Assembly: GCF_017168235.1 (NCBI RefSeq)
Contig: NZ_JABFAO010000004.1
Location: 779,895 to 843,894 of the forward strand
Reading direction: 5' to 3'
DNA from: Rhodococcus sp. KRD197
GTDB taxonomy: Bacteria > Actinomycetota > Actinomycetes > Mycobacteriales > Mycobacteriaceae
DNA length: 64,000 nt
In this document: one piece after another, positions 25,042 through 27,864 of the stretch
Numbering within the stretch: the stretch's first letter is position 1
Layout of the letters: every line of letters starts with the position of its first letter
Position numbers and translations under genes: made by a program
Notes under the pieces: generated by a model
Told to the model about the DNA's origin: nothing
What the model saw: the letters and a program-made list of their open reading frames with translations, nothing else
The model's database searches: none

Positions 25042-25057
25042 ATACCCCCCAGGGCTT
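25042..25057. promoter_or_regulatory. Degenerate CstR-type operator upstream of the MMPL transporter
   Basis: ATACCCCCCAGGGCTT matches 13 of 16 positions of the site at 26997-27012, with the right half-site decayed (GGGCTT for GGGTAT). It is in the leader of the MMPL gene, about 2 kb from the cst genes. Binding is inferred only from similarity. Confidence 0.45.
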
Positions 25058-25088
25058 AATGGGTTCGGTTCTTCCCGAACACCGCACT

Positions 25089-25107
25089 CTCACCGCCCCG
25101 GGGTGAG
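25089..25107 (-). terminator. Possible terminator of the cstB-thioredoxin operon
   Basis: CTCACC and GGTGAG arms enclose a GC-rich 7-base centre, 34 bases after the thioredoxin stop on the minus strand. No T tract follows. Confidence 0.4.
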
Positions 25108-25140
25108 CTGCGCTTCTTGCCTCGTTTGCGCTACCGACAC

Positions 25141-25515
25141 CTAGGCGTTCGTAGACGCCTTCTGCTCGGCGAGTTTCGCGTGGACTGCAGCCATGTCGAG
25201 TCCCTTGATCTGGGTGATCAAGTCCTCGAGGGCGGCTTGGGGGAGGGCTCCGGGTTGGGCGTAGACGAGCACACCGTCGCGGAACGCCATCAGCGTGGGA
25301 ATGGATTGAATACCGACGGCACCGGCAAGTTGCTGTTCCGCTTGGGTGTCGACCTTGGCGTGCACGATATCGGGGTGTGCCTGCGATGACTTCTCGAAAG
25401 TCGGAGCGAACGCCCGACATGGGCCACACCACCCCGCCCAGAAGTCGACGATGACGATGCCCTTGCCGGAGACGGTGGATTCGAAGTCCGCGGCGGTGAG
25501 ATCTGTGGTGGTCAC
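25141..25515 (-). CDS. Thioredoxin
   Basis: A 124-residue thiol-disulfide oxidoreductase with the WCGPC active site (Cys30, Cys33) and the cis-proline loop IPTLMAF. A C-terminal extension of about 15 residues follows the usual fold. The open frame reaches far upstream into cstB in another phase. The GTG at 25515 is chosen because AAAGGA lies 7 bases upstream and it gives a standard thioredoxin N-terminus. It lies 46 bases behind the CstB-like gene, so it could reduce persulfides or protein disulfides formed in sulfide detoxification. Confidence 0.92.
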   Translation of the reverse strand: MTTTDLTAADFESTVSGKGIVIVDFWAGWCGPCRAFAPTFEKSSQAHPDIVHAKVDTQAEQQLAGAVGIQSIPTLMAFRDGVLVYAQPGALPQAALEDLITQIKGLDMAAVHAKLAEQKASTNA

Positions 25516-25561
25516 GAGGTGGTCCTTTCGCTGACGTGTAATAGGGATGTTGTCGAGTCGG

Positions 25562-26941
25562 TCAGGCCGGGACGTGCGCCTCGGCCCATTCGTTGTAGCC
25601 ACCGACGAGATCGCTGACCCGCTCGAAGCCCTGCGCGCGCAGCAGCGACGCCGCCACACTCGATCGCCACCCGCCGGCGCAGTGCACCACGATCGGCCGG
25701 TCGGTAGGTACTTGCTCGAGCCGAACCCGCAACTGCGCCAACGGGACCGCGATCGCCCCGGGAATGACCCCGGAGTCACGTTCACCCGGGTTTCGGATAT
25801 CGACGAGGGTGACCGCGTCGGCGGCCAGCAGGTGGTCCAACTCCTGCACGGTGGTGCGCGGCGCGATGCGCACCAGATCGGCGAGCTCGGTCGGGAACAC
25901 TCCGTCGGTACCGATGTTGAGATAGCCCGCAGCATTGTCCGAGCCGATCCGGGCGAGCCGCAGTGCCGCGTCTTGCTCCTCACCGGGGTAGGTGATCAGC
26001 ACGATGCGCTCTCCGACCTCGGCGACCATGCCACCGGTTTCAGCGAACCGGCCGTCGAAACCGACGTTGACCGAGCCCTCCAGGTGTCCGGCGGCGAAGT
26101 CGTCGACGCTGCGGGCATCGAGCACCCGGGTACCGGCCTCGAGCTCGGCTCGAACCTGGCCGGGTGTCTGTTCCGGAATGAGGCGGGCCTGATCGAGCAA
26201 CGGGTGCATCGTCTTGTTCAACCCGGCATCGACCGAGAAGTACGACGGCGCCGCCGGCTGACCGTCGATCACCAACGCCACGAATGCATCCTCGGTCATC
26301 GGCTGCACCGACGGGTTGGTAGCCCGCTGTTCGCCGATGGTGGAGGTCAGCTCCTCGGACAAGTTCTTTCCGCAGGATGAACCGGCACCGTGCGCGGGCA
26401 TCACCGTCACCGTATCGGGCAAGGTCAGTAGCTTCTCGTGGATCGTGTGATACATCGCCTTGGCCAGATCCGAGGTGGAGCTGTCGCCGATGTTCACCAG
26501 GTCGGGGCGGCCGACATCGCCGATGAACAGCGAGTCTCCGGTGAGAACCGCAGTGGGGGTGGCGTCGGGATGCTCACGCACCAGCACACTGATCGATTCC
26601 CAGGTGTGCCCTGGGGTGGACAGGATTTCCAGGTCGACCTCGCCGAGGGAAAGGTGCTCGCCGTCGACAAGGCGGCGAATCGGGTAGGAGGCCTCTGCGG
26701 CTTCACCGAAACCGATCCACGCGCCGGTCGCATCGAGCAGTTCCAGATGCCCGGATACGAAGTCGGCATGGAAGTGGGTGTTGATCACACCCTCGATGGT
26801 CAGGCCCAGGCGCTGTGCGTCGTCAAGATATTCGGTGACGTCACGGCGCGGGTCGACTACGACTGCGCGGCCAGTGCTTTCGTCGCCGATCAGGTACGAC
26901 GCATGCGACAGGCACTCGATGTAGTACTGCTCGAGAATCAT
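25562..26941 (-). CDS. cstB: CstB-like persulfide dioxygenase-rhodanese fusion
   Basis: A 459-residue protein expected to oxidise low-molecular-weight persulfides and transfer sulfane sulfur. Three parts are visible. The first is a metallo-beta-lactamase/ETHE1-type domain (THFHAD, residues 55-60; STPGHTWES; TGDSLFIGDVGRPDL). The second is a middle rhodanese-like domain without an active Cys (VLITYPGEEQ, a pseudorhodanese). The third is a C-terminal rhodanese with Cys421 (VHCAGGWRSS). This order is that of Staphylococcus aureus CstB. The ATG at 26941 has GGAGG 8 bases upstream; the longer frame starts 5 codons earlier. Divergent from the rhodanese-cstR operon across a shared operator region. 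Confidence 0.9.
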   Translation of the reverse strand: MILEQYYIECLSHASYLIGDESTGRAVVVDPRRDVTEYLDDAQRLGLTIEGVINTHFHADFVSGHLELLDATGAWIGFGEAAEASYPIRRLVDGEHLSLGEVDLEILSTPGHTWESISVLVREHPDATPTAVLTGDSLFIGDVGRPDLVNIGDSSTSDLAKAMYHTIHEKLLTLPDTVTVMPAHGAGSSCGKNLSEELTSTIGEQRATNPSVQPMTEDAFVALVIDGQPAAPSYFSVDAGLNKTMHPLLDQARLIPEQTPGQVRAELEAGTRVLDARSVDDFAAGHLEGSVNVGFDGRFAETGGMVAEVGERIVLITYPGEEQDAALRLARIGSDNAAGYLNIGTDGVFPTELADLVRIAPRTTVQELDHLLAADAVTLVDIRNPGERDSGVIPGAIAVPLAQLRVRLEQVPTDRPIVVHCAGGWRSSVAASLLRAQGFERVSDLVGGYNEWAEAHVPA

Positions 26942-26996
26942 CGCGTTTTCCTCCATGGGGTCGATTTCTCGGGGCTTGCTATGGACAGTTTGGCAT

Positions 26997-27012
26997 ATAC
27001 CCCCTAGGGTAT
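26997..27012. promoter_or_regulatory. CstR/CsoR-family operator 1 in the cstB-rhodanese intergenic region
   Basis: ATACCCCCTAGGGTAT: six-base inverted arms ATACCC/GGGTAT around a 4-base centre. It lies just downstream of a minus-strand TTGACA hexamer (27017-27012) that could be the cstB -35, so bound repressor would cover the promoter. The sequence type fits G-tract palindromes known for CstR/CsoR repressors. Confidence 0.75.
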
Positions 27013-27018
27013 GTCAAG

Positions 27019-27033
27019 TACCCCCAAGGGGTA
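27019..27033. promoter_or_regulatory. CstR/CsoR-family operator 2 in the cstB-rhodanese intergenic region
   Basis: TACCCCCAAGGGGTA: six-base arms TACCCC/GGGGTA around CAA. It is separated from operator 1 by 6 bases and lies 38 bases before the rhodanese start, so it is well placed to control the plus-strand operon. Confidence 0.72.
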
Positions 27034-27071
27034 TTGATCGAAGAGGGCCGGATACGACCAGAGGAGTTGCA

Positions 27072-27386
27072 GTGAAGGAAATTGACATCGCCACCTTCGC
27101 CGACGCGTGGAAGGCCGGTGCGCCGGTGGTCGACGTGCGAGAGGACTACGAGTACGTGCAGGCGCATGTGCCTGGCGCGCAGTGGATCCCCCTCGGTGAG
27201 TTGAGCGCCCGGGTTGCCGAGGTCCCCGACGGAGACATGGTCTACGTGATCTGTGCCTCGGGAAACCGCAGCCTGTACGGTGCCGACATTCTCAGCAGCG
27301 CCGGCCGCCGCGCCGTCTCGGTCGCCGGTGGGACAGGTGCGTGGCTGCGCAGCGGCAACCCCGCCGAGAAAGGCGGTACCCGATGA
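27072..27386 (+). CDS. Single-domain rhodanese (sulfurtransferase)
   Basis: A 104-residue protein with one rhodanese domain. It has the N-terminal VVDVREDYEYVQAHVPGA block and active-site Cys61 in the loop CASGNRS, which would carry sulfane sulfur as a persulfide. GTG start with AGGAG 5 bases upstream. It is the first gene of the operon ending with the CstR-type repressor. Its stop overlaps the next small ORF by ATGA. Confidence 0.92.
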   Translation: MKEIDIATFADAWKAGAPVVDVREDYEYVQAHVPGAQWIPLGELSARVAEVPDGDMVYVICASGNRSLYGADILSSAGRRAVSVAGGTGAWLRSGNPAEKGGTR

Positions 27387-27463
27387 GCCGGGCGATATTG
27401 GAAAACCACACCAACCATGAGTGCTCCAGTTATGGACACAACTCCGAACAGGCAGGTCGATAA
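27383..27463 (+). CDS. Candidate 26-residue small protein coupled to the rhodanese and repressor genes
   Basis: The ATG overlaps the rhodanese stop (ATGA), and the TAA is followed immediately by the ATG of the repressor, so the frame is precisely fitted between the two genes. It encodes 26 residues (starts MSRAILENHTN, ends EQAGR) with three His and one Cys, and no recognisable domain. It may be a real short peptide, a device that passes ribosomes on to the repressor gene, or the remnant of a longer gene. Confidence 0.5.
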   Translation: MSRAILENHTNHECSSYGHNSEQAGR

Positions 27464-27748
27464 ATGACCACAGAATCCGCCATCGCCGCCGAGTCGACCG
27501 CGTTGGTGCTCAACCGACTCCGTCGGGCGCAGGGGCAACTCGCTGGGGTGATCACGATGATCGAATCCGGTCGGGAATGCCGTGACGTGGTTACCCAACT
27601 CGCCGCGGTCTCGCATGCCCTACACCGAGCCGGCTTCAAGATCGTCGCAGCTCAGTTGCGTCAATGCGTTCTCGACGAAAAGGACAGCACCTGCTCCGAC
27701 CGGCTGTCCGAGGAGGAACTCGAGAAGCTCTTCCTCACGCTTGCCTGA
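27464..27748 (+). CDS. cstR: CstR-type repressor (CsoR/DUF156 family), probable persulfide sensor
   Basis: A 94-residue all-helical repressor. It retains the family cysteines Cys39 (GRECRDV) and Cys68 (QLRQCVLDE), 29 residues apart. The position equivalent to the copper-ligand His of M. tuberculosis CsoR (Cys+25) is Gln64. Loss of that His with both cysteines kept is the mark of CstR sensors, which respond to sulfane sulfur, rather than copper sensors. It sits behind the rhodanese gene and close to four matching palindromes, so autoregulation is likely. Confidence 0.88.
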
Positions 27749-27848
27749 CCGCCGCCGGCGGCGACCGAGTCCGTCTGTTCACTTGTCCCGAAAGTGAAGT
27801 GAGAGAACCGGCGCGGTACACGTTTGGTGTCGAACATCCGACCGATCG

Positions 27849-27864
27849 ATACCCCATGGGGTAT
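27849..27864. promoter_or_regulatory. Perfect CstR-type operator upstream of the GtrA-like gene
   Basis: ATACCCCATGGGGTAT is a perfect 16-base palindrome, 75 bases before the GtrA start and 100 bases after the cstR stop. It matches the half-sites of the two cstB/rhodanese operators. Confidence 0.72.

Follow-up and report, generated by a model that had tools for sequence, protein, structure and literature searches.

In Staphylococcus aureus, the di-thiol CsoR-family repressor CstR acts on rhodanese and persulfide genes, a target set unlike the one considered here. In the available part of a study on Streptomyces coelicolor (PMC7533328), a regulator binds the sequence ATACC-n6-GGTAT at a dioxygenase promoter and in the csoR-rhodanese region, and polysulfide treatment leads to its release. 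The consensus of the copper-responsive CsoR of S. lividans, as given in the accessible text of PMC3902906, has a five-base spacer (N5). Here we describe a related locus in a 64,000-nucleotide stretch (the window) of the 5.56-Mb genome of Rhodococcus sp. KRD197. Judged by its sequence, the core of this locus (dioxygenase, rhodanese, CstR and a tandem operator) forms a CstR circuit of the actinobacterial kind, as in S. coelicolor. The locus appears to join this known kind of circuit to a recurrent new member, an MMPL transporter, to a local addition, a GtrA-type gene, and to a rule for the length of the operator spacer. A persulfide-sensing CstR circuit, with predicted DNA binding, release by sulfane sulfur, promoter and expression, is very probably the best explanation of the whole.

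The core circuit and its operators

The CstB-like persulfide dioxygenase (25562-26941, minus strand; start chosen by comparison with R. marinonascens) combines a metallo-beta-lactamase domain (PF00753) with two rhodanese stretches (PF00581), the domain make-up of the CstB type, and matches the solved structures 3tp9 and 3r2u over nearly its full length. Next in line is a thioredoxin gene (25141-25515, minus strand), in the same order as in R. marinonascens. On the plus strand lie genes for a single-domain rhodanese, a sulfurtransferase recognised by domain match (27072-27386), and for a 94-residue DUF156/CsoR-family repressor (cstR, 27464-27748). The latter scored 80.4 bits against PF02583 (DUF156/Trns_repr_metal; cut-off 22.8), and its Cys39 and Cys68 are invariant among nine aligned CstR-type proteins. 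Four residues before the second cysteine, at what we take to be the copper-ligand place, it carries Gln where both copper-type paralogues of the genome (the C36 and C8 CsoR) have His. The Cys-His-Cys pattern of copper CsoR/RicR proteins is therefore missing, the score against the NCBIfam RicR model is 40.5 (cut-off 175), and the C36 paralogue is 42% identical to CstR over 57 residues. The nearest solved chains by sequence, 7mq1-7mq3, were deposited as CsoR. The distance of 29 residues between the two cysteines equals that between Cys37 and Cys66 of the S. coelicolor regulator (available part of PMC7533328).

Two operators separate the divergent units. The first (O1, 26997-27012, ATACCCCCTAGGGTAT) is a perfect ATACCC-N4-GGGTAT palindrome, with a four-base spacer (N4), and agrees with the persulfide site ATACC-n6-GGTAT in the published text available (PMC7533328). 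Read towards the dioxygenase, it begins at the last base of a -35-like TTGACA box. The second (O2, 27018-27034) abuts TTGACA on its upstream side. A perfect N4 site also lies between cstR and the GtrA gene (27849-27864, ATACCCCATGGGGTAT), and a degenerate one with two mismatches, possibly vestigial, is found 85 bp before the MMPL gene (25042-25057, ATACCCCCCAGGGCTT). Exact N4 sites number six in the whole genome, those at 26997 and 27849 among them, and 13 places match with at most one mismatch; reversed-pattern controls gave none in either case.

The sites were scored with a matrix built from 279 N4 sites of relatives, which is tight by construction since the site lists admitted at most one mismatch. 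Scores were 26.5 bits at 27849 (the highest in the window), 24.6 at 26997, 11.9 at 20185 (a site taken up below) and 5.5 at 25042. In 60 shuffles of the window the best score was 17.0 bits, and matches at least as good as these four numbered 0, 0, 0.05 and 0.43 per shuffled 64 kb. The sites at 26997 and 27849 are far beyond chance, and their description as N4 palindromes in the initial annotation was exact. Two other sites named there stood in part. The one given as N4-type at 27019-27033 is palindromic; set in the ATACCC register, however, it becomes GTACCC-N5-GGGTAT over 27018-27034. The decayed palindrome at 25042 is present with its two mismatches, and because of its low score and the 0.43 matches expected it is, taken alone, at chance level; it gains weight only because relatives of the MMPL gene have good operators upstream. 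A window search admitting up to three mismatches came close to noise (14 found against 8.8 expected, 14 being reached in 6 of 100 shuffles).

The cstR gene lies together with the dioxygenase and rhodanese genes and shares operators with them, the linkage typical of CstR. An N4 site with at most one mismatch was present at all 80 named CstR loci, which were taken from 434 confirmed relatives as the best 80 (hereafter the best 80 CstR loci). Homology, the conserved operators and the precedent of S. coelicolor thus give good support to the initial annotation of the 27464 product as a CstR controlling the dioxygenase and rhodanese-cstR units.

When promoters were compared by eye in the direction of the dioxygenase, a TTGACA box flanked by an operator on either side was common to the window and seven relatives, hand-picked from a larger set of tandem sites and some of them close relatives. 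The centres of O1 and O2 are 21-22 bp apart. The upstream operator O2 has a four-base spacer in six of the seven relatives, and a five-base spacer in the window and in L292. The L292 site (1522-1538), the second dioxygenase operator of its locus, stands beside an N4 operator and makes a second hybrid pair. For Thermus TTHA1953, binding became about 10- or 15-fold weaker when a single central base was added or removed (accessible part of PMC10318464), and by analogy the window's O2 may be a weaker site for CstR. In R. marinonascens, the dioxygenase, thioredoxin, rhodanese, CstR and GtrA genes lie in line, and a divergent gene, with operators between, resembles sulfide:quinone oxidoreductase. 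This gene (L100, 3178-4395) encodes a Pyr_redox_2 oxidoreductase, the likeness being judged by eye, and diverges from the dioxygenase gene.

We propose that reduced CstR would bind the N4 palindromes and close the divergent dioxygenase-thioredoxin and rhodanese-cstR promoters. With one operator starting where TTGACA ends and the second lying directly upstream of this box, bound CstR would block RNA polymerase. Sulfane sulfur on Cys39 and Cys68 would free the repressor from the DNA. The window MMPL would probably be induced by run-on transcription from the dioxygenase-thioredoxin genes, control through its own decayed site being weak, if any, and the GtrA gene may have been recruited recently through its perfect operator.

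An MMPL subfamily recurrent at CstR loci

Listed matches to the window MMPL (22770-24956, minus strand) in 298 genomes of the order fell into a group of at least about 52% identity and a remainder of at most about 36%, the exception being one protein matched in two pieces. Thirty loci of the high-identity group were examined, one per genome (29 without the window), along with 20 control MMPLs chosen among the listed matches at 30-36% identity. An operator with at most one mismatch lay within 500 bp upstream of 18 of the 29 subfamily genes as against none of the 20 controls. A neighbouring CstR, dioxygenase, TauE, DUF302 or rhodanese gene was found for 26 of the 29 and again for no control, and CstR itself lay within the fetched stretch in 14. 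Among the best 80 CstR loci, 22 carried an MMPL that was at least 50% identical, and in 15 of these an N4 site lay no more than 500 bp upstream; the 22 belong to Rhodococcus, Prescottella, Nocardia, Gordonia, Lolliginicoccus, Actinomadura, Streptacidiphilus and Actinacidiphila. Within the same genome, contig C32 carries a cluster ordered site-MMPL-DUF302-TauE-CstR-dioxygenase, and contig C8 a similar one. A DUF302 protein is encoded at L012 8235-8654, and DUF302 recurs in 31 of the best 80 CstR loci.

The window protein belongs to the high-identity group and has dioxygenase and rhodanese genes beside it. Its two Asp-Tyr pairs (D275-Y276 and D619-Y620) are invariant across 38 aligned subfamily members, and Cys is absent from it and from 28 of the 37 others, which would fit a proton-driven pump lacking thiol chemistry of its own. 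Operators and gene neighbourhoods support a distinct MMPL subfamily that recurs at CstR loci in several actinobacterial genera. The proposed inclusion of MMPL in the regulon is thus supported for the class, whereas a degenerate site is all that the window copy has of its own. No described CstR-MMPL regulon was found in the literature searched, in which most subscription papers were not included and sources were represented in part. MMPL proteins in these bacteria are otherwise associated mostly with lipids and drugs; if the link is true, a transporter subfamily gains a testable role in reactive-sulfur stress.

Operator spacing at sulfur-type and copper-type genes

N4 sites outnumbered N5 sites by 313 to 2 in CstR- or MMPL-linked loci of relatives. 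Across the genus, 18 of 37 genomes contained exact N4 sites and 31 contained exact N5 sites, with no match to either reversed control. Taking one locus per genome, out of more matches listed, gave 17 N4 loci and 30 N5 loci, one of the latter from the window's genome. Genes for MMPL, dioxygenase, DUF302, TauE or CstR accompanied 16 of the 17 N4 loci, all from outside the window's genome. At the N5 loci, a metal P-ATPase, DUF305 or CsoR gene lay within the fetched 3 kb in 30 of 30 cases and a sulfur-panel gene in none; the copper-type panel was compiled from the N5 loci of the window's genome, and its "copper" label comes from P-ATPase/HMA and CsoR similarity, with DUF305 presumably linked to copper. 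The looser pattern TACCC-N5-GGGTA occurs at 10 places in this genome, seven of them at P-ATPase or DUF305 genes and one being 27018. These results suggest that, in the genus, a four-base spacer marks sulfur-type genes and a five-base spacer copper-type genes, the half sites being the same. Each form is known singly; the contrast between them was not met in the literature searched, as far as its texts were available. Such a rule would help to tell sulfur regulons from copper regulons in actinobacterial genomes, and would make cross-talk between paralogous repressors directly testable by a one-bp operator change.

Five DUF156 genes are present in the genome: the window cstR, two further genes of the CstR type (contigs C32 and C8) and two of the copper type. 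The C8 CstR copy (L014 6893-7144) contains an in-frame TAA, and the C8 cluster may depend on a different CstR acting in trans. For two other genomes (G014 and G030), the matches likewise carried a flag for one TAA, position within the gene aside.

The GtrA gene

The GtrA/DPMS-type membrane protein was recognised by domain match (27940-28473, plus strand); a start at 28009 is more likely from comparison with R. marinonascens, judged by eye. A 24-codon open reading frame with a good ribosome site (27938-28012) overlaps this likely start by GTGA, and in R. marinonascens another, different reading frame upstream of GtrA ends in an ATGA overlap; both were noted by eye. GtrA matches were found in 99 of 121 genomes searched, the best other one at 72% identity, and 30 loci, the window's own included, were examined. 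CstR and GtrA genes adjoin only in the window and in R. marinonascens (L100), where CstR is 94% and the downstream GtrA 68% identical to the window proteins; G432/L246, with the same 94% CstR, is probably the same genome. The next-nearest CstR loci (G482 and G474, four stretches) have no adjoining GtrA, and GtrA occurs in one of the best 80 CstR loci. A plasmid search for GtrA returned one record, from Nocardia farcinica (54.9% identity). Nothing pairing CsoR with GtrA was met in the literature searched.

Other sites in the genome

Further N4 sites precede a metallo-beta-lactamase/redoxin-type gene (C69), a YgaP-type membrane protein gene accompanied by a methyltransferase and a DsbA-CcdA pair (C2) and, as a perfect operator, the gene of a DUF5313 membrane protein (L011 6507-6522, C14); C8:77276 is also among the 13 places. 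The thiol-redox genes behind these sites would fit the circuit, and DUF5313 does not explain itself. In the window, a one-mismatch N4 site absent from the initial annotation (20185-20200, 11.9 bits) lies directly upstream of a DUF2202 gene (20197-20904, plus strand), which could be a further CstR target. DUF2202 matches occurred in two of the 37 genus genomes, one being the window's own and the other weak (E 6.4e-4).

Weighing the alternatives

Several observations weigh against a CstR circuit of this extent. A sigma-70 scan of 24900-28100 returned no promoter-like site, for GtrA or other genes. A site within 500 bp is missing in 11 of the 29 MMPL relatives, and three lack all of the expected neighbours; among the best 80 of 434 CstR loci, those of Streptomyces, Kitasatospora and mycobacteria carry no MMPL of at least 50% identity; and the window MMPL itself lacks an N4 operator of at most one mismatch, having only the two-mismatch site at 25042. 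An inverted repeat seen by eye between the thioredoxin and MMPL genes (25090-25106) might stop read-through into the latter; a terminator scan found none at this position, and the computed fold pairs these bases otherwise. Two of the 13 N4 places (C2:115273 and C3:6267) lie within long open reading frames and look chance-like, one of the 17 N4 loci (L283) has no recognised neighbour, and two looser N5 places (C5:153078 and C10:152843) have no panel gene nearby. Upstream of GtrA, none of the 29 other loci has an N4 or N5 site with up to two mismatches (L081 and L088 have an operator-like site elsewhere in the locus), and the CstR-GtrA gap of R. marinonascens contains no site with up to three mismatches and a spacer of 3-5.

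Because the GtrA site is not conserved in the relatives examined, it represents either a local gain or a loss elsewhere, and GtrA under CstR is at most a plausible, but local and recent, addition. Thus, of the claim that GtrA belongs to the regulon, the perfect operator stands and conservation does not; retention of the motif among relatives, raised as a check in the initial annotation, held for the tandem dioxygenase layout in seven relatives and failed for the GtrA site. It is a fair question whether the GtrA and MMPL sites function at all, 27849 being perhaps a relic or by-product of rearrangement and 25042 a chance match. The chance-level score of 25042 and the missing GtrA operator in R. 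marinonascens and the 29 other loci speak for this, whereas 27849 has the top score of the window, is perfect at all 12 fixed bases, and belongs to a pattern whose reversed control was empty across 37 genomes; we lean against this possibility while giving it appreciable weight.

Some sites could instead serve a copper-sensing CsoR/RicR paralogue, alone or with CstR, so that copper would tune the dioxygenase through the N5 site at 27018. The genome does encode two copper-type DUF156 paralogues, the N5 sites of the genus keep company with copper-panel genes, and with no sulfur-panel gene, in all 30 loci examined, the S. lividans copper CsoR consensus is of the N5 form (PMC3902906, available part), and both 27018 and L292 are N5. 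We nevertheless consider this unlikely: the remaining three window sites are N4, O2 is N4 in six of seven relatives, so that its N5 form is perhaps drift with some CstR binding kept, and two of the ten looser N5 matches in the genome lack a copper-type neighbour. We are similarly doubtful of a more general scheme in which paralogous CstR and CsoR proteins would share ATACCC/GGGTAT and be parted by one spacer bp, the pair of four- and five-base spacers at the -35 box would form a hybrid switch for persulfide and copper, and the MMPL subfamily would be a persulfide-induced exporter in many Actinomycetota.

That detoxification, export, two-component sensing and surface polyprenyl-sugar functions all come under a single CstR is quite improbable, for although four palindrome-like sites surround these genes and more N4 sites exist elsewhere in the genome, response regulator plus histidine kinase genes (20886-22684, minus strand, in the window) were found, at the thresholds set, in none of the best 80 of 434 CstR loci and GtrA in just one, and the genome has three genes of the CstR type, one of which contains an in-frame stop. 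The two-component genes, included in the initial annotation, are not supported by these loci and were rejected as regulon members, and its single repressor was too simple a view in the face of five DUF156 genes and of copper-type sites with the same half sites and one more spacer base. What remains of its broad four-unit regulon is the dioxygenase and rhodanese-cstR units, MMPL as a class, and GtrA as a plausible local element of the persulfide-sensing CstR circuit.

Comparison with known systems

The window MMPL resembles MmpL3 and the MmpL family in its PF03176 match and in having Asp-Tyr pairs in both halves; in MmpL proteins these pairs form the proton relay. It differs from MmpL3 in its linkage to sulfur genes and in scoring 196.9 bits, as a partial match, against a cut-off of 1400 for the curated model NF052608, and its identification as the MmpL3 trehalose monomycolate exporter was rejected on that score. 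The S. lividans copper CsoR (PMC3902906, in the text available) has equal half sites, ATACCC/GGGTAT, and differs in its N5 spacer and in its targets, the copper efflux genes copZA. The Enterococcus faecalis CstR, as far as the available part of PMC9405070 describes it, is likewise a di-thiol repressor of the CsoR family that acts on rhodanese and persulfide genes, with a different target set. The SUL modules of Antarctic Arthrobacter plasmids combine, as in the window, a CsoR-family gene with sulfur dioxygenase and rhodanese genes, and also contain TauE and DUF302; the accessible text (PMC6305408) names an MFS transporter and no MMPL, and does not mention operators. For the S. coelicolor ScCsoR circuit (sco0620), MMPL, thioredoxin and GtrA are not mentioned in the part of PMC7533328 available, and the positions printed for the operator pair (-48 and -9) imply a distance of about 39 bp, compared with 21-22 bp in the window. 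In its other described features this circuit is like that of the window: a DUF156 repressor with two Cys 29 residues apart, and 16-bp operators of the form ATACC-n6-GGTAT, of which two precede the persulfide dioxygenase gene and others lie at the rhodanese gene and at the repressor's own gene (same source).

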